Below are positions 2,267-63,912 of a DNA stretch of 64,000 nucleotides, piece by piece. The notes beneath the pieces are model-generated. The model searched no databases and was not told the origin of the DNA. It saw only the letters and a list, made by a program, of their open reading frames with translations. The DNA lies in contig QHNH01000011.1 in assembly GCA_003218375.1 (NCBI GenBank), forward strand, positions 1 to 64,000, written 5' to 3'. The translations under genes and the position numbers were made by a program. Within the stretch, counting starts at the first letter, position 1; the number at the start of each line of letters is the position of its first letter. The DNA is from Verrucomicrobiota bacterium (lineage in GTDB: Bacteria > Verrucomicrobiota > Verrucomicrobiia > Chthoniobacterales > UBA10450).

Positions 2267-3073
2267 TCAATAGCCGCGGCTTTTTCGCCGCGAAATCATC
2301 ACGATGATAATGATGAGAACCAGCAGAGCGCCAGCGCCGATCCCGATCTTCAAGCGCGGGTCCATCGGCTCGGGCGGAGGTACGGGCGTCGGCGGCGGAG
2401 CCGTTGCCTGCACGACTGGCCGGGGCGTGGCCATCTTGGCCCGGACGTGCTGCAGGTTTTGAGCGATGTCCGGATCGTCCGGTTTCAGTTTTTGGGCCGC
2501 TTCCAGATCCGGCACCGCTTTGGCAAACTGCCCCATCGAATAATACGTGTCCGCCCGCTTGCGCAGGGCCATCGCGTTGCTCGGGTCCTTCGTAATCGCG
2601 ACGGTATAATCGGCGAGCGCTTCGTCCCATTTCCTCAAGCTGTGATAGACCTGGCCGCGTCGTTCGTAAGCGACCATGTCGTTTGGATTCAGCTCGATCG
2701 CCTTGGTCAGGTCGGTGAGAGCGGTGTCGAATTGGTTCTGGCCCAACTCCGTCCGGCCCCGTTCCAGATATCCCAGCTCATTCTTGGGACCGAGCTCGAT
2801 GGCTTTCGTGAAATCGGCCATCGCTTCGGGAATTTTTCCCGCCGTGCGATAGACGAGACCGCGATCGACGTAGAGGCGGACATCAATGGGATTGAGCTCG
2901 ATGGCCTTGGTGTACTCGACAATTGCCTCATCATATTTTGCCGCCTGGGAAAGCTCATGGCCCTTGTTGCCGTGCGCGGCGGCCGCAGCCGGATCGGCGC
3001 CACAAGTCCAACGGGCTGTCGCAAAAAGCAGGCTCGCGGCCAATAACGGGAGTGAATTCTTCGCGATGTTCAT
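2267..3073 (-). CDS. Secreted/membrane-anchored TPR-repeat protein
   Basis: The protein is 268 residues. It has an N-terminal signal-like segment ending near residue 25, then about five tetratricopeptide repeats between residues 35 and 205, recognisable by recurring A..DYTKAIELNP ends. A Pro/Thr-rich linker leads to one hydrophobic span near the C-terminus (LLVLIIIIVMI) followed by RRKSRGY. The repeats would thus face the periplasm on a C-terminal anchor. TPRs mediate protein contacts; no enzyme motif is visible. It is a paralogue of the next gene upstream (3191-4081). Confidence 0.85.
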   Translation of the reverse strand: MNIAKNSLPLLAASLLFATARWTCGADPAAAAAHGNKGHELSQAAKYDEAIVEYTKAIELNPIDVRLYVDRGLVYRTAGKIPEAMADFTKAIELGPKNELGYLERGRTELGQNQFDTALTDLTKAIELNPNDMVAYERRGQVYHSLRKWDEALADYTVAITKDPSNAMALRKRADTYYSMGQFAKAVPDLEAAQKLKPDDPDIAQNLQHVRAKMATPRPVVQATAPPPTPVPPPEPMDPRLKIGIGAGALLVLIIIIVMISRRKSRGY

Positions 3074-3190
3074 ATTGATCCTTCGGATGAGATGAGCTGC
3101 GGGGCTGCCTTTTTAGACAACGGCCCACGGCACAGGAAGCTTATTCCGCTTCGCACGCTCCCGCGAGAGACGGGTTCCGAATCGCCGCCT

Positions 3191-4081
3191 TTACTTTGGC
3201 TTGGGAACCGCAGTTGCCGACGGCGCCATGGAGGGCGCTTTCGCCGGTGACGTGGTCGGAGCCGGCGGCGCGGGCGACGGGGAAGCGTTCGCGCGCGTCT
3301 CGAGCGCTTTTAACCGGCTTTGCGCGTCCACGTCGTCCGGCTTGATCTTCAGGATCGCCTTAAAATCCTCAGCCGCCTTCACGCTGTCGCCGGCCATGAT
3401 ATTTGCCTGCGCCCGGCGCCGATACCCGTCCGGATCCTTTGGGTCGGTCGCAATCGCCTTCGAGTAATCGGCGATGGCTTCCTTGAATTTCTTCAGGTTT
3501 CGATGCGCAAACGCCCGCCGTTCCCAGGCGGCGCCATCGTCGGGAACCCGCTGAACGACCACGGTGTAATCGTCGATCGCTTTCTGCCATTCGCTTTTCG
3601 AAATGTAAGCGAACCCGCGGAAGCGCCGCGCATTCGCATCGTTCGGCGCGATCTGGATTGCCTTGTCAAAATCCGCCAGCGCATTGTCGATTTGCTTTTG
3701 CTGGAGCAGAACTTCGCCACGCCCCACGTAGGCAGCGATGTTTTTGGGATCCATCTCAATCGCCTTTGAGTAATCGTTGAACGCTTCGGTGAACTTGTTC
3801 AGGCCGCGATAGGCCGTCCCGCGATTAAAATAATTCTTCGCGTCCTGCGGCTCCGCCTCAATGGCCTTGGTGAATTCCTCGACCGCCTTGTCGTATTCCT
3901 TTTTCTTCGCGAACTCGACCCCGCGCGCGGAATGGCCGCCCGGGTCCTTGGGATTCGGCTTGGTATTTCCCTGCGCCTGGGGCGCCGGCCCGCGCTTCTT
4001 GGCCGCAAACAAATTTTCTCCTGGATACGCGATGAGCGCGATCGCGAGGCTGAGCACCGTCCCGATTCTGTAAGTATTCAT
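3191..4081 (-). CDS. Secreted TPR-repeat protein
   Basis: The protein is 296 residues. It has a signal-like N-terminus (hydrophobic to about residue 26), roughly six tetratricopeptide repeats (about 55-255) and an Ala/Pro/Thr-rich tail of about 35 residues without a membrane anchor. Repeat ends such as EFTKAIEAEP and DYSKAIEMDP closely match those of the neighbour at 2267-3073, so the pair looks like a tandem duplication that diverged at the C-terminus. It is probably a periplasmic scaffold; no partner can be named from sequence. Confidence 0.85.
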   Translation of the reverse strand: MNTYRIGTVLSLAIALIAYPGENLFAAKKRGPAPQAQGNTKPNPKDPGGHSARGVEFAKKKEYDKAVEEFTKAIEAEPQDAKNYFNRGTAYRGLNKFTEAFNDYSKAIEMDPKNIAAYVGRGEVLLQQKQIDNALADFDKAIQIAPNDANARRFRGFAYISKSEWQKAIDDYTVVVQRVPDDGAAWERRAFAHRNLKKFKEAIADYSKAIATDPKDPDGYRRRAQANIMAGDSVKAAEDFKAILKIKPDDVDAQSRLKALETRANASPSPAPPAPTTSPAKAPSMAPSATAVPKPK

Positions 4082-5805: not shown

Positions 5806-5889
5806 TCGGAGGGACGTGCTTCTGCACGTCCCACTCTTGATTTCCTGCGTTGCCTGAGAAATGGGACGCGCAGAAGCACGTCCCTCCGA
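5806..5889. repeat. Two-armed palindromic element, family C copy 1
   Basis: The outer ends TCGGAGGGACGTGC and GCACGTCCCTCCGA are perfect inverted repeats. Inside each end is a hairpin: left GGGACGTGC-TTCT-GCACGTCCC, right the similar GGGACGCGC-AGAA-GCACGTCCC. They are separated by an unpaired middle with CACTCTTGATTTCC. It lies 7 bases downstream of the VWA gene stop codon. Related copies are at 43339, 49117 (half), 52198, 56204 and 63854. Confidence 0.85.
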
Positions 5890-8589: not shown

Positions 8590-8639
8590 TTTCCTTTCAA
8601 GGAGTCTAACGCGCCGGATGGCGGAAACTTAAAGGGAAT

Positions 8640-8722
8640 CTTCTGTAGCCGCCGCCCTGTGGGCGGCGTTGGGAACGCGCGTCACCAATCTCACGCTTCG
8701 CATAGCGAAGCGGCTACAGAAG
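8640..8722. repeat. Two-armed palindromic element, family A copy 1
   Basis: Outer inverted ends are CTTCTGTAGCCGC and GCGGCTACAGAAG. The left arm hairpin is GCCGCCCTGTGGGCGGC, the right arm hairpin CGCTTCGCATAGCGAAGCG; between them is a short unpaired spacer. The arms are of two unrelated types, and copies at 37968 and 39274 carry other combinations. It lies upstream of the sigma gene and next to the terminator of the outer-membrane protein gene. Confidence 0.85.
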
Positions 8723-8763
8723 AAAAAAAAACGCCGGGAACACATACAGTGTTCCCGGCGTTT
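8723..8763 (-). terminator. Intrinsic terminator of the outer-membrane protein gene
   Basis: On the minus strand a 14-bp perfect stem AACGCCGGGAACAC/GTGTTCCCGGCGTT (8762-8749 with 8743-8730) has a 5-base loop and runs straight into TTTTTTTT. It begins about 20 bases after the gene's stop codon. This is a textbook Rho-independent terminator. Confidence 0.92.
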
Positions 8764-29464: not shown

Positions 29465-31600
29465 TCACTTCTTCTTAAACACCTCGACCGCATTCCAGGT
29501 GGCATCCGGCGGTTGTTTTTCGTATTCGAGCGAGCGCTCCAGATACATCTTGGCCAGGGCATCATCGGGATAGAACTCGAGGAACTGCGAAAAGAGAATC
29601 TTCGCCTGGGTGAAATCGCGCTCGCGAAATTTTCGGAACCCAGCCTCGTAGGTTTCGAGGCGGTGCAGAAATTCCTCGTCCCTCCGATCCTTTGTCACGC
29701 CAATCAAGGTGGAGATTTCCACCGGCTCGGTTTTGCCTTTTACCTGGACGAGCGCCACGCTGCGCAGATCGAATTCGTCCCGGATCAATTCAGCGGCCCG
29801 GGCGCCGACCAGAATATCGACCGCGTAGGTGCGGGTGAGAGCCTCCAGACGGGAAGCGAGATTGACCGCATCGCCGATCACAGTCGGATCCGCCTTCTCC
29901 TGGGAGCCGATGTTGCCGCCGAGGACATCGCCGTGGTTGATCCCGATCCCAAAATGAAATGGCGCGATGCCGCGCGCGGCCCACTGCTCATTCAGCGCCG
30001 CTAACTCCCGCCGCATCGCCAGCGCGGCGCGCGCGCACGCCTTCGCATCCTCGGCCACGCCGCGACTGCTCACGTTCCCCCACACCGCCATCACGGCGTC
30101 ACCGATAAACTTATCCAGGGTCCCGTTATTCTCGAAGACCGCGCCCGTCATGCGGCTGAGATATTCGTTGAGTTGCGCCACGAGTTTCTCCGGATCCGCG
30201 CTTTCGGTGAGGGTCGTGAACCCGACGATGTCCGAGAACAGGATCGTGGCCGGAATGCGCACGCCGCGCAGGCTGCTGTAAAAGCTGTCGGGATTATCGA
30301 GAATCTCCTTCACGAGATTCTTGGAAACATAGCGCTCGAGGGTCCGGCGGGTCCGCAGCTTCTCCATGCGCTCAAGCACGAACTCGAAGCCTAACGAGAG
30401 AAATCCCGCGGCGAGAAATGCCGAAAGCACTGGAACAACTACCACCAGCAATCCCGTGCGATCGTAGCTGACCCGCGCAAAGGCGAGATATGCGCCCGCG
30501 ATCGCGAGCAGGCTGATCACAGAAATCAACGGTCGCCCCGCGAACGAGATCAACAGCCACGCAAGAGCAGCCGCCGCTGCCACCAGCATCAAATCGGTCC
30601 GCTCCGAAGTCGGATAGAGGAAGTCGTGGCCGATTGTTGCCGCCATCGCGTGGATGTGCAAAGTCGGCCCCGGCGTGTCCGGACTCATCGGCGTGGGGAC
30701 GAAATCGTGCGCGATCTGCGAGGACGCGCCGACCACTACGATCTTGTCCTTGAAGAAGGCGCCGCCGCCGAAACCGTCCCCGCTCGTTTGCGATTGTGGG
30801 ACAGGCGCATTCCAAATCTTCGGATCGAATACCTCATAAAGCGGTTGCGCCGGATAGGCATCGTTCGCGCCGAACCGGAATTGATGAGGGTAAAAGTCCC
30901 AGAACACGTCTTTCTCGTGTCCGAGTTTTTTTAGCATCCGGGCCGACATCGCATAATAAATTTCCTGCGACGGCTGCGACTCCTGGCCGGCCAAAAGCCG
31001 ATCCGAAACCATGTATCGGACGCTCCGGACCTTGCGATCGAGCGGGTCGGAGAAGAAAATTACGAACCCGACGCGGTCATCCAGCAACGCCGGCGGCGGA
31101 ATGAGACTGGCATTCGGCAGCACGGCCTGCATGCCCTTGGAAAAATCGAAGTTCGCTCCGAGGACGACCCGGTCGCGGTACCGGTCGAGCGCCTCATGGA
31201 AAATCGCGTCGCCGTCGTTCGGTGGATTGGAGACGAAGTCGAACATCACGGCGCGTGCTCCTGCGCCGAAGAGCCGATCGAGCAGGAGAGCCCAGACTTC
31301 TCGCGACCACGGGTAAGGCCGTTCCGTCATGAGTTGCAACGCGCGACTGCTCGCCAGCTCTTCCGGTGAAAATGGCGGCAGTTCGAGGGTGGACTGATCG
31401 ATCCCGAGGAAAACGAACTCCGGATGGGTCCGCGCCTTGCGGCCTTCGCGCTGGAGAAAATCCTCGAAGTTCTGTTCCTGGGTCCAGATGCCCGAGAGAA
31501 ACGGCAGACTTGGAAAGAAATGCCCGACAAAAATCACCGCCGCGCAAAAGGCGCAGATTACTGCTACGACGATGCGGCGATGTCGGGCCATCCAATGCAC
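29465..31600 (-). CDS. Membrane adenylate/guanylate cyclase with CHASE2 sensor
   Basis: The 711-residue class III cyclase has an N-terminal helix (VVAVICAFCAAVIFVGHFF), a large extracytoplasmic CHASE2 domain (about 35-325), three transmembrane helices (about 335-410) and a cytoplasmic cyclase domain from about 455. The first metal Asp is in ATILFSDIVGFTTL, the second in KFIGDAVMAVWGN. Later motifs are FGIGINHGDVLGGNIG and TVIGDAVNLASRLE. A short C-terminal TPR-like helix region ends it. It makes cAMP or cGMP in response to an external signal. The gene stands alone. Confidence 0.9.
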   Translation of the reverse strand: MHWMARHRRIVVAVICAFCAAVIFVGHFFPSLPFLSGIWTQEQNFEDFLQREGRKARTHPEFVFLGIDQSTLELPPFSPEELASSRALQLMTERPYPWSREVWALLLDRLFGAGARAVMFDFVSNPPNDGDAIFHEALDRYRDRVVLGANFDFSKGMQAVLPNASLIPPPALLDDRVGFVIFFSDPLDRKVRSVRYMVSDRLLAGQESQPSQEIYYAMSARMLKKLGHEKDVFWDFYPHQFRFGANDAYPAQPLYEVFDPKIWNAPVPQSQTSGDGFGGGAFFKDKIVVVGASSQIAHDFVPTPMSPDTPGPTLHIHAMAATIGHDFLYPTSERTDLMLVAAAAALAWLLISFAGRPLISVISLLAIAGAYLAFARVSYDRTGLLVVVVPVLSAFLAAGFLSLGFEFVLERMEKLRTRRTLERYVSKNLVKEILDNPDSFYSSLRGVRIPATILFSDIVGFTTLTESADPEKLVAQLNEYLSRMTGAVFENNGTLDKFIGDAVMAVWGNVSSRGVAEDAKACARAALAMRRELAALNEQWAARGIAPFHFGIGINHGDVLGGNIGSQEKADPTVIGDAVNLASRLEALTRTYAVDILVGARAAELIRDEFDLRSVALVQVKGKTEPVEISTLIGVTKDRRDEEFLHRLETYEAGFRKFRERDFTQAKILFSQFLEFYPDDALAKMYLERSLEYEKQPPDATWNAVEVFKKK

Positions 31601-33345: not shown

Positions 33346-33452
33346 CGGAACATAGACTTTCAGTCTGTGCGCCCAGCGGAGTTGTACTCTGCTGCCACGT
33401 TTGCAGCGGACAGAATGTCCGCTGGGCGCACAGGCAGGATGCTTATGTTCCG
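33346..33452. repeat. Four-hairpin palindromic element, family B copy 1
   Basis: The outer ends CGGAACATA/TATGTTCCG are inverted, followed by the shared TGTGCGCCCA/TGGGCGCACA. Outer hairpins: left ATAGACT-TTC-AGTCTGT, right ACAGGCA-GGA-TGCTTAT. Inner hairpins: CAGCGGAGT-TGT-ACTCTGCTG and GCAGCGGAC-AGAAT-GTCCGCTG. It begins 12 bases after the pheS stop codon and lies inside the pheS-pheT operon. Copies are at 36645 and 47613. Confidence 0.9.
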
Positions 33453-37963: not shown

Positions 37964-37967
37964 GCTG

Positions 37968-38066
37968 CTTCTGTAGCCGCTTCGCTATGCGAAGCGCGAG
38001 TACAGGCCCGCCGTCTGTTTCGATTGTCGCGCACTCACGCTTCGCATAGCGAAGCGGCTATAGAAG
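37968..38066. repeat. Two-armed palindromic element, family A copy 2
   Basis: The ends CTTCTGTAGCCGC and GCGGCTATAGAAG match the copy at 8640. Both arms are of the TTCGC type here: GCTTCGCTATGCGAAGCGC on the left, CGCTTCGCATAGCGAAGCG on the right. It begins 4 bases after the carA stop codon. Confidence 0.9.
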
Positions 38067-38101
38067 AATTGACGCCGCCGATAACAGGGCCACGTTTTCT
38101 C

Positions 38102-39226: not shown

Positions 39227-39273
39227 CGTCCGGCAGTTGTAGAGGCGTGTGTCCTCAGGCGCAACTCAGCTTT

Positions 39274-39365
39274 CTTCTGTAGCCGCTTCGCTGTGCGAAG
39301 CGCGGGAGCGGACCCCGACCTCGACGTTGCGTCCCACGCCGCCCACAGGGCGGCGGCTACAGAAG
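39274..39365. repeat. Two-armed palindromic element, family A copy 3
   Basis: The ends CTTCTGTAGCCGC and GCGGCTACAGAAG match the other copies. The left arm is of TTCGC type (GCTTCGCTGTGCGAAGC), the right arm of GCCGCC type (GCCGCCCACAGGGCGGC). Copy 1 has the arms in the opposite order. It lies in the divergent spacer between the GT2 gene and the mla operon. Confidence 0.9.
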
Positions 39366-39415
39366 AGGGATTTCGCTTTGGCACCACTGGGAACTGGGGC
39401 AACTTCCCCCTCAAC

Positions 39416-43338: not shown

Positions 43339-43390
43339 GGAGGGACGACCACCGGTCGTCCAAAGTGGGACGGACAGCGCCCGTCCCTCC
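43339..43390. repeat. Two-armed palindromic element, family C copy 2
   Basis: The ends GGAGGGACG and CGTCCCTCC frame two hairpins: GGACGACC-ACC-GGTCGTCC and, on the right, GGGACGGAC-AGC-GCCCGTCCC. The stems differ in sequence from the other C copies but still pair. It ends 9 bases from the DUF1844 gene's stop codon. Confidence 0.85.
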
Positions 43391-47612: not shown

Positions 47613-47732
47613 GGGAACATAGGCCTCTGGCCTGTGCGCCCAGCGGAGTTGCACTCCGCTGAAAACCTAGGAACGGAGCGTAACAACGGGCTGCAAACCC
47701 GTTGGGCGCACAGGCCGGAGGCCTATGTTCCT
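47613..47732. repeat. Four-hairpin palindromic element, family B copy 3
   Basis: The ends GGAACATA/TATGTTCC and TGTGCGCCCA/TTGGGCGCACA are as in the other copies. Outer hairpins: left ATAGGCC-TCT-GGCCTGT, right ACAGGCC-GGA-GGCCTAT. The left inner hairpin is CAGCGGAGT-TGC-ACTCCGCTG, but the right inner one is a new type, AACGGG-CTGCAAA-CCCGTT. A divergent middle (ACCTAGGAACGGAGCGTAAC) separates them. Confidence 0.9.
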
Positions 47733-47781
47733 CGCGACCGATCGCCTTTGCCGAAGGCGCGACCCGGCTTTAGAATCGCGC

Positions 47782-50700
47782 ATGAGTCCTTTGCAGGAGC
47801 AGATCGAGCAGCGGGGGTTGCAGATCTTCGATCTCGTCGACCAGAACCCGGAGACGATCTTCAGCAAGGCTGGCTTTTACCAGCGCATGATGGCGTTCTC
47901 GATGCGCGACGAGCATTTCAAAGTGCAGATGTTCCGGTTCGTCGATGTGCTCGCGTCACTCCGCCATTCGTCCGACATCGTCCAGCATCTCAGCGAATAT
48001 TTTGCCGATATGCGCAACGGCTCCGTGCCTTTCCTTCAGACCGGCATCAAGGCCGCGCGCATTTTCCCGTGGCTGACCGCGCCGATCCTGCGCTGGAACG
48101 TCTCCGGCATGGCGCGGCAATTCATCGCCGGGCGCGATCCGGACGACGTGATGAAAATGTTGCGCAAGCGCCGCAAGGAAAAGATCGGGTTCACGGTCGA
48201 TCTCCTCGGCGAAGCGGTGGTGAGCGAACAGGAAGCGAATGAATACGCCGAGCGCTGCTTTCATTTGCTCGACGGGCTGGCAGAACGGACCCGCGGCTGG
48301 ACCGATCCACTGGGCAAAAACACCGAGCTATTCCCGGTGGTCAACGTGTCGGTAAAAATCTCCGCGCTCTATTCGCAGATGAACCCGGCCGACCCGGAGG
48401 ACGCGATCGCGCATCTCGCGCCGAAGCTGCGCCCGATCCTGCGGCGCGCGCGCGAAGTCGGCGCCTTCATTAATTTCGACATGGAGAGTTACGCGCATAA
48501 GAACACGACGCTCGAGCTTTTCCGGACGCTCTTCATGGAGGACGAGTTCCGCGATTGGCCACAGGCCGGGATCGTGATCCAGGTTTATCTGCGCGATGCC
48601 GAGCGCGACCTGACGAACTTGATCGAATGGGGCCGGCAGCGCGGCACGCGTTTCACGGTGCGGCTCGTGAAAGGCGCTTACTGGGATTACGAAAAGATCA
48701 AGGCGGCCCAGAACGGCTGGCGTTGCCCGGTCTTTCTGCAAAAGCCGGAGAGCGACGCGAACTTCGAAGCCTGCACCCGGATCCTGCTCGAGAACGAATC
48801 GATCGTGACCTCGGCGTTCGGCTCGCACAACGTCCGCAGCATCGCGCACGCGCAGGCCTACGCGCAGCAACTCGGGATCGATAAAAGCCGGTTCGAATTT
48901 CAACTGCTTTACGGAATGGCCGGTCCGATCAAGCGCGCCCTCGTCGAGATGGGTTATCGCGTCCGCGAATATTGTCCGGTGGGCGAACTGCTCCCCGGCA
49001 TGTCGTATCTCGTCCGGCGCCTGCTCGAGAACACGTCGAACGAAGGTTTCCTCAAGGCGAAGTTTTCCGACAAAGCCGGCCCCGAACAACTCCTGCGCGA
49101 CCCGCGCTCCTTAATTGGAGGGACGCGCGCCGTCGCGTCCCACTCTTCTCCCAAAGCGGCCACGCATTCCCGCAACGGCCAGTCGCTCGACACTCCGCCG
49201 GGGGACACCTACGAGAACTCGCCGCTGGTGAACTTCGTCCATCGCAGCAGCCAGGAACAAATGCGGACCGCGCTTCGCGAAGTGAAGGCGAAGCTGGGGC
49301 AAAAATATCCGATCGTCATCAACGGCCAGAAAATTTGGACCGATAATCTGATCGACTCGATCAATCCCACCTCGCCGCAGCAGGTCGTCGGCGCGGTGGC
49401 GGAAGCCCACGTCGACCACGCGGAAGCGGCGGTGACGGCGGCGAAGAAAGCTTTCGAGCATTGGTGCCGAGTCAGTGTCGAACATCGCGCCGGCCTTCTC
49501 GAACGTGTCGCGACGATCATGGATCGCCGGCGATTCGAGCTTTCCGCGCTCGAAGTTTACGAAGTGGGCAAGCCGTGGGCCGAAGCCGATGGCGACATCC
49601 GGGAAGCGATCGACTTCCTCCTTTTCTACGCGCAGCAAATGCGCATCCGCGGTCTCCCGCGGCTGACCCAGCACGTGCCCGGCGAAGAAAGCTACCAGCA
49701 TTACTGGCCGCGCGGCGTCGCCCTCGTCATCGCGCCTTGGAATTTCCCGATGGCGATCCTGACCGGCATGGTTTCGGCCGCGCTCGTCACCGGCAACACC
49801 GTCATCATGAAACCGGCGGAGCAATCGGCCGTTTGCGGCGCGATGTTGATGGAGATGTTCGAGGAAGCCGGCGTGCCTCCCGGCGTCCTGAATTTCCTGC
49901 CGGGCAAAGGCCGCGTCATCGGCCAGCATCTCGTCGATCACAAGGACATCCACATGATCGCGTTCACCGGCTCGCGCGAAGTGGGCCTGCGGATTTGGAA
50001 AAGCGCGGGCGAGACGCGCGAAGGCCAGTTGGAATTGAAACGCGTCGTTTGCGAGATGGGCGGCAAGAACGCGGTGATCGTCGATTCCGATGCCGACCTT
50101 GACGAAGCGATCGTGGATACGGTTTATTCGGCGTTCGGTTATCAGGGGCAGAAATGTTCTGCTTGCTCGCGTCTGATTGTGGTCGAGGAGAATTACGAGC
50201 GCGTCGTCAAACGGCTCGTCGAAGCGGCAGCCAGTTTGCGCGTCGGAAATCCCGAGACCCCGGGCATCATGGTCGGCCCGGTCATCGACGAGACCGCCTA
50301 CCGGCGTCAGTTGGAAATAATCGAGGCCGGAAAAGAGGAGGCGACTTTGGCGTTCCAAGGCACCGTTCCGTCCGAAGGCTTCTTCGTTCCGCCGACCATT
50401 TTCACCGACGTCAAACCGCACCTGCGCCTCTCGTGCGAAGAAATTTTTGGGCCCGTTCTCAGCGTGCTCAAAGTCCGCGATCTCGACGAAGCGATCCGCG
50501 TAGCGAACGACACCGACTACGCATTGACGGCCGGCTTTTTCTCACGCAGCCCGGCAAACATCGAGCGCGTGAAAGCGGAGCTGGTGGCGGGCAATGTTTA
50601 CATCAATCGCTCCTGCACCGGCGCGGTCGTCGGCCGGCATCCATTTGGCGGCTTCAAGATGTCGGGCGGCGGCACGAAAGCGGGCGGTGGCGATTACCTC

Positions 50701-50814
50701 CTCCAGTTCATGGTCCCGCGCGTCGTCACCGAAAACATCATGCGCCACGGCTTCGCGCCCGACACCACGCCGGAGTTTCGCGAGCCGTTTGGCGCAGCAT
50801 CGACGCAAAGTTGA
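47782..50814 (+). CDS. putA: Bifunctional proline dehydrogenase / L-glutamate gamma-semialdehyde dehydrogenase
   Basis: The 1010-residue fusion oxidises proline to glutamate. The PRODH barrel covers about 60-430, with RFTVRLVKGAYWDYEKIK and the C-terminal MSYLVRRLLENTSNEGFL block. The aldehyde dehydrogenase domain covers about 500-990, with the NAD-binding VALVIAPWNFPMAI and FTGSREVG, the Glu in CEMGGKNAVIV and the catalytic Cys in YQGQKCSACSRL. No DNA-binding RHH domain is present, so it is not a transcriptional repressor. The linker (about 446-475) contains a half C repeat translated as GGTRAVASHS. The start at 47782 follows the end of repeat B3. Confidence 0.95.
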   Translation: MSPLQEQIEQRGLQIFDLVDQNPETIFSKAGFYQRMMAFSMRDEHFKVQMFRFVDVLASLRHSSDIVQHLSEYFADMRNGSVPFLQTGIKAARIFPWLTAPILRWNVSGMARQFIAGRDPDDVMKMLRKRRKEKIGFTVDLLGEAVVSEQEANEYAERCFHLLDGLAERTRGWTDPLGKNTELFPVVNVSVKISALYSQMNPADPEDAIAHLAPKLRPILRRAREVGAFINFDMESYAHKNTTLELFRTLFMEDEFRDWPQAGIVIQVYLRDAERDLTNLIEWGRQRGTRFTVRLVKGAYWDYEKIKAAQNGWRCPVFLQKPESDANFEACTRILLENESIVTSAFGSHNVRSIAHAQAYAQQLGIDKSRFEFQLLYGMAGPIKRALVEMGYRVREYCPVGELLPGMSYLVRRLLENTSNEGFLKAKFSDKAGPEQLLRDPRSLIGGTRAVASHSSPKAATHSRNGQSLDTPPGDTYENSPLVNFVHRSSQEQMRTALREVKAKLGQKYPIVINGQKIWTDNLIDSINPTSPQQVVGAVAEAHVDHAEAAVTAAKKAFEHWCRVSVEHRAGLLERVATIMDRRRFELSALEVYEVGKPWAEADGDIREAIDFLLFYAQQMRIRGLPRLTQHVPGEESYQHYWPRGVALVIAPWNFPMAILTGMVSAALVTGNTVIMKPAEQSAVCGAMLMEMFEEAGVPPGVLNFLPGKGRVIGQHLVDHKDIHMIAFTGSREVGLRIWKSAGETREGQLELKRVVCEMGGKNAVIVDSDADLDEAIVDTVYSAFGYQGQKCSACSRLIVVEENYERVVKRLVEAAASLRVGNPETPGIMVGPVIDETAYRRQLEIIEAGKEEATLAFQGTVPSEGFFVPPTIFTDVKPHLRLSCEEIFGPVLSVLKVRDLDEAIRVANDTDYALTAGFFSRSPANIERVKAELVAGNVYINRSCTGAVVGRHPFGGFKMSGGGTKAGGGDYLLQFMVPRVVTENIMRHGFAPDTTPEFREPFGAASTQS
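49117..49148. repeat. Half of a family C element inside putA
   Basis: GGAGGGACGCGC-GCC-GTCGCGTCCC followed by ACTCTT matches the left half of the element at 5806 (same end GGAGGGAC, same flank CCCACTCTT) with a different, still paired stem. It lies in frame in the interdomain linker of putA and adds about ten residues without a stop. No right half is visible. Confidence 0.8.
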
Positions 50815-56203: not shown

Positions 56204-56257
56204 GGAGGGACATGCTTCCGCATGTCCGAAATGGGACGTGCAGAAGCACGTCCCTCC
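56204..56257. repeat. Two-armed palindromic element, family C copy 3
   Basis: The ends GGAGGGAC/GTCCCTCC frame hairpins GGACATGC-TTCC-GCATGTCC and GGGACGTGC-AGAA-GCACGTCCC; the right arm is the exact complement of the left arm of copy 1. The element fills the convergent spacer, with 3 bases to the frr stop and 1 base to the next gene's stop. Confidence 0.9.
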
Positions 56258-63853: not shown

Positions 63854-63912
63854 TGGAAGGAACGATCTCCGTGTCGTTCCGAAATAATGGGTCGGACAGC
63901 GTCCGTCCCTCC
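63854..63912. repeat. Two-armed palindromic element, family C copy 5
   Basis: The left arm is GGAACGATCTCCGTGTCGTTCC and the right arm GGTCGGACAGCGTCCGTC, with the family end GTCCCTCC on the right. The left end is degenerate (GGAAGGAAC in place of GGAGGGAC). It starts 6 bases after the rpsI stop. Confidence 0.75.

Follow-up and report, generated by a model that had tools for sequence, protein, structure and literature searches.

A family C palindromic unit in the PutA interdomain linker of a Verrucomicrobiota bacterium, and REP-like repeats in the same linker across a Chthoniobacterales family

Short palindromic repeats which reside within protein genes have been described in several bacterial systems. 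Di Nocera et al. 2013 (PMC3733652) reported intragenic REPs of the GTAG and CGTC types, found that the verrucomicrobium Opitutus terrae is the richest in intragenic GTAG REPs, and proposed that the inserts are perhaps neutral, being in flexible linkers or loops. REP singlets were regarded as remnants of REPINs by Bertels and Rainey 2011 (PMC3116915). Palindromes of the Rickettsia RPE and Wolbachia WPE groups also lie in frame in protein genes, and among them RPE-4 and RPE-6, which have the size of REPs, belong to the CGTC type (PMC3733652).

The repeat considered here, family C, was encountered inside the putA gene of a soil bacterium, in a window of 64,000 nucleotides, which is the whole stretch of DNA analysed. 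Similar to the intragenic GTAG/CGTC REPs, it consists of dispersed short palindromes found in ORFs as single units or inverted dimers and adding about 8 to 30 residues, while a key difference is the tag, which is GGAG in the family C copies, themselves selected by pattern, in place of the unpaired GTAG tag of GTAG REPs. Similar to REPINs and REP singlets (PMC3116915), family C shows inverted units paired across a short spacer together with singlets, but it differs from them by its tag and by having a unit inside a gene, and no adjacent RAYT gene was found for it at the 12 Y1 loci scanned. The likeness to RPE and WPE lies in in-frame palindromes that contribute extra residues to proteins, whereas those elements belong to Rickettsiales and several of them are longer, a distinction made by description and not by sequence. 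Intragenic REPs as such are therefore already known (Rickettsia RPE; PMC3733652), and the newer part is the recurrence of multiple families in one linker. PMC3733652, the main text of which makes no mention of putA, does not describe three unrelated families sharing a linker in a single protein family, as seen here, and no description of many-family recurrence in one linker was found in the literature searched.

The putA ORF (47725-50814, plus strand) encodes a bifunctional proline dehydrogenase/P5C dehydrogenase, and its true start is probably the ATG at 47782 (MSPLQ), judging from the match with relatives. A two-hairpin repeat, GGAACATAG...CTATGTTCC, occupies 47614-47731, so that its end overlaps the first ATG of the listed ORF; further copies of this repeat are located at 33346 and 36649. 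The family C unit is a single REP-like unit with the tag GGAG at 49117-49141 on the plus strand (GGAGGGACGCGCGCCGTCGCGTCCC), assigned by exact copies elsewhere and by family matches. Its first 24 nucleotides, 49117-49140, read GGAGGGACGCGCGCCGTCGCGTCC, and an 8-bp stem, GGGACGCG/CGCGTCCC at 49120-49141 with the loop CGCCGT, reaches 49141, which gives the outline GGAGGGACGCG...CGCGTCCC and the stem subtype GCGC/CGC. The codons from 49117 to 49146 are in frame (GGA GGG ACG CGC GCC GTC GCG TCC CAC TCT), and the unit is translated as G-G-T-R-A-V-A-S, corresponding to residues 465-472 of the 1029-codon ORF.

In the Pfam comparison, the Pro_dh domain covered residues 143-444 and the Aldedh domain residues 542-998 of the product, placing the unit between the two. 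The unit is thus in frame, the 1029-codon ORF remains intact, both domains are conserved, and the location is a linker, which bears out the first-pass annotation in its description of an in-frame hairpin between the two domains with the frame left open. Its statement that the element is coding also stands, in comparison to its count of about ten residues, which is corrected to eight. Similarly, the assignment to family C holds but the term "half" element does not, the feature being a single REP unit of a kind that commonly occurs unpaired. The flank ACTCTTC follows at 49142-49148 (plus strand), its CACTCTT portion being similar to the loose flank on the inner side of other units of the family. 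This flank, as CCCACTCTT, had been noted as shared with the copy at 5808; C/GACTNTT-type continuations recur after family C units, and CACTCTT was exact in 3 of the 96 units sampled, so that a special tie to that copy was dropped.

Family C is a high-copy dispersed short palindrome of the REP/REPIN-like kind. The sequence GGAGGGAC had 10 matches in the window in comparison to 2.0 expected, a number which no shuffle reached; among these, the match at 563 was ruled out as a unit, being part of a tRNA-Trp gene (555-629), as was the match at 29678, where no hairpin is present. The pattern GGAGGGACN{7,22}GTCC returned 168 matches in the own genome (G000) in comparison to 4 with the reversed control, and 171 matches in the congener G005. 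Stem subtypes of the family include GTGC/GCAC, GACC/GTC, GGGC/CCC, GCGC/CGC, GCCC/GGC, and GAGC/CTC. Complete inverted pairs lie on the plus strand of the window at 5808-5887 (REPIN-like, the reference copy of the first-pass annotation), 43339-43390 (stem subtypes GACC and GGGC), and 56204-56257 (ATGC and GTGC), and a single unit of subtype GGAC lies on the minus strand at 63894-63912. The sampled loci comprised 32 inverted pairs of 48 to 101 bp, pairs and singlets occurring together as in REP/REPIN systems, and 14 of the 46 plus-strand units lacked a partner inside 110 bp. Of the sampled units, 99% contained no stop codon in any of the six frames, in comparison to 46% of base-shuffled sequences, and family C is thus unusually easy to read through.

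Several other repeats were observed alongside. The sequence GGAGGGACTCGCCGCGGCGAGTCC occurs four times in G000 (C3:28970, C19:282190, C26:29424, and C28:236283) and as a single copy in each of G003, G005, and G007; one occurrence falls within a ketoacyl synthase ORF and was left out of the counts, since it probably represents either normal coding sequence or a subtype of its own. Direct repeats with a 102-nt spacing at 2693-3897 coincide with two minus-strand ORFs and probably encode TPR-like protein repeats.

The interdomain linker extends from LLRDP to Y-E-N-S (49105-49206, plus strand), is hypervariable in length and has low model confidence. The nearest solved PutA structures aligned over the full length, with the gaps falling in the linker, where the query exceeds 5ur2 by about 17 residues and 4nm9 by about 7. 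In an AlphaFold2 model built with 36 aligned PutA sequences, no regular structure was seen from about residue 463 to 506, and pLDDT was below 50 for residues 466-493. The residues encoded by the unit are thus predicted by the model to sit in a disordered PRODH-ALDH linker.

A GC-rich linker could in principle resemble family C by accident, given that Gly-Gly codons can yield GGAGGG and that the single-strand folding of the putA unit is only mildly better than that of shuffles (z -2.0). The 24-nt sequence has no second exact copy in its own genome, while exact copies were found at other loci of four related genomes, namely G004, G034 (twice), G028, and G016, and none of the 1120 control windows came within 4 mismatches of the family. 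This exact identity to dispersed copies leaves a chance hairpin with practically no probability, and it was rejected on the control windows. The first-pass view was upheld: the gene contains a copy of an element that is dispersed and mobile-looking, and the linker tolerates this copy and gains new residues from it.

PutA was searched in 58 related genomes and found in 56, the search also counting other aldehyde dehydrogenases. The PutA linkers sampled from this Chthoniobacterales family amounted to 56 distinct sequences, among which near-duplicates inflate the counts somewhat, and assignment to three repeat families followed thresholds that we set ourselves. Sixteen of the 56 linkers carried one of three unrelated palindromic families; among 560 linkers with shuffled codons the number was 4, and among 560 windows from other parts of putA it was 1. 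Family C was present in 6 of the 56 linkers and in none of the 560 windows of either control, and the distance to the dispersed family C subtype library was bimodal, with 0 to 4 mismatches in the six linkers and at least 6 in the others. The second family (S), TCCCTCGACTTCGCTCGGGATGA, translated SLDFARDD, was found in 3 linkers; it is itself dispersed, with 88 matches in G034, one of them inside the G034 putA. The third family (T), which is GTAG-tagged and exemplified by GTAGCCGGGGTCGCTGACCCCGGC, was found in 7 linkers and had 22 matches in G059, the genome of linker L094. GTAG-tagged palindromes, CTTCTGTAGCCGC..., also lie in the window at 8639-8723, 37967-38067, and 39273-39366, a type found in the PutA linkers of other genera. 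The figure of 16 linkers is probably too low, because further linkers (e.g., L105 and L028) resemble decayed units that fall below the thresholds. On the tree of the 56 PutA proteins, the four linker states required at least 10 changes, and family C alone required 4. As read from these sequences, the PutA linker has, in different genera, received units from at least three repeat families.

Among the congeners, GGAGGG stands at this codon in G002, G003, and G004 just as in G000, followed by different stems (GGAGGGACGCCCTCCGCGGCGTCC, GGAGGGACGCCCTCCGTGACGCCT, and GGAGGGAGGAGCGTCGTCTCGTCC, respectively), which are mostly self-complementary, the stem of G003 being broken. G002 and G003 match G000 in linker length, G004 has one residue more, and the element-free linkers of G001, G006, and G007 are shorter than that of G000 by 3, 4, and 2 residues, respectively. 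The unit had been proposed as a recent insertion of about 30 bases limited to some strains. The shared codon in three congeners speaks against a clean event of this kind, and so does the difference of 2 to 4 residues, where 8 to 10 would correspond to the proposed size; the converse outcome, in which all relatives would have the same residues, was not observed either, G001, G006, and G007 being without them. A clean empty site of 25 to 30 nt was sought in the putA relatives and not found, the length gap being only 6 to 12 nt, and because the element-free species differ by this amount and not by about 25 nt, the borders of the insertion are undefined.

In the putA tree, from which the linker was excluded, G000 grouped with the element-free G006 (100/100), and G002, G003, and G004 formed a separate clade (100/100); the rpoB tree gave the same two groups, with weaker values for the G002/G003/G004 group (87/91). 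The congeners bearing family C are not one clade, and therefore either two gains occurred or one gain was followed by several losses. A single ancient insertion in the ancestor of the genus, lost in G001, G006, and G007 and altered in the survivors by compensatory substitution or conversion of the stems, would account for the shared codon and for the linker residues downstream of the unit, which can be aligned among G000, G002, G003, and G004. Among five putA units (the four congeneric ones and that of G019, from another genus), two stem pairs had changed on both sides, and pairing was kept in 91% of cells in comparison to 80% in shuffles, 11 of 500 shuffles being as high, which also suits a single insertion, although this pairing evidence comes from few rows. 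The several losses required by the tree count against it, as does the finding that the orthologous units resemble different dispersed subtypes more closely than they resemble one another; we regard it as a serious possibility which falls short of an even chance.

Alternatively, different family C subtypes may have inserted independently, at least twice, at one preferred spot of the linker. The stem subtype is CG in G000, CC in G002 and G003, and AG in G004, each matched by dispersed subtypes, and the mismatches to the nearest of these number 1 for G002, 3 for G003, 2 for G004, and 1 for G019. G006, the sister of G000, is element-free, G019 and G011 carry family C at other linker positions or in a much decayed form, and in the DUF5996 gene discussed below different subtypes likewise occupy one site in G000 and G005. 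Against this, two hits at an identical codon presuppose a putative target preference, and we consider independent insertion to be close to an even chance. The sequences thus suggest that the putA event is either old or repeated, with the linker remodelled afterwards.

The stem was mostly kept in three of the four congeners despite sequence change, which might be ascribed to a hairpin with a selected local role, such as slower translation between the domains or control of mRNA decay. Such a role appears improbable, as the G003 stem is broken, the sister G006 has no hairpin, the linker is much shorter in distant PutA proteins, and the families in other genera are unrelated in sequence.

Family C was also found within other genes. 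The in-gene share was estimated from the 96 sampled units of the own genome, 9 of them being in frames that look coding; five ORFs were checked against Pfam, and three of these five were compared with relatives. The hosts confirmed by Pfam were an FAD oxidoreductase, a DUF5996 protein, RarA, and a CDP-alcohol phosphatidyltransferase-like protein. In G000 (L212, G000:C28:23724-25142) and G005 (L213), the FAD oxidoreductase/halogenase-like gene contains an in-frame family C pair that is complete, an insert absent from G006 and other relatives. The DUF5996 gene of G005 (L229, G005:C23) contains a complete pair, 60 nt long and in frame, and that of G000 (L228, G000:C22:100972-102048) has a different family C subtype at the same site; the site is without family C in G001-G004 and G006. 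Presence and absence at orthologous sites, as expected of a mobile element, were thus observed for these two genes, in comparison to putA, where clean borders are lacking. In RarA, a loop varied in length among relatives (L242-L246, from G000, G003, G007, G010, and G011); it contained family C, in frame, in G000, whereas the repeat sequence present in G003, G007, and G011 was GTAG-like, and from these sequences the loop is perhaps a second landing zone.

Taken as a whole, the putA feature is very probably a REP/REPIN-like non-autonomous palindromic singlet which entered the region of putA coding for the unstructured linker and was kept, being free of stops, in frame, and harmless to the structure. 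The palindrome would have been moved in trans, probably by single-strand transposition of the HUH/Y1 type, and would have landed as a single unit or decayed to one. Each of the 8 genomes of the genus contains genes of the Y1_Tnp family, while among the 12 Y1 loci scanned no convincing case of a RAYT gene flanked by family C was found, a C-like pair being present at one locus only, about 0.3 kb away from the reading frame. Once landed, a unit may be filtered by frame and tolerance only, so that one arriving in frame in a flexible linker would be tolerated and become protein, later to decay or be replaced. The putA unit would then have no separate role as DNA, and its effect would be to renew and lengthen the linker.

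More tentatively, the disordered linkers and loops of Chthoniobacterales housekeeping enzymes may be standing landing sites at which unrelated REP families insert, replace one another, and decay. If this is true, linker turnover in these proteins would come mainly from mobile palindromes and not from point mutation and slippage. Because the PutA linker exists in occupied, decayed, and empty forms, the insertion rate, site preference, and cost to the protein are measurable. Stop-free palindromes, readable in any frame and settling in disordered linkers, are a documented source of new protein sequence.
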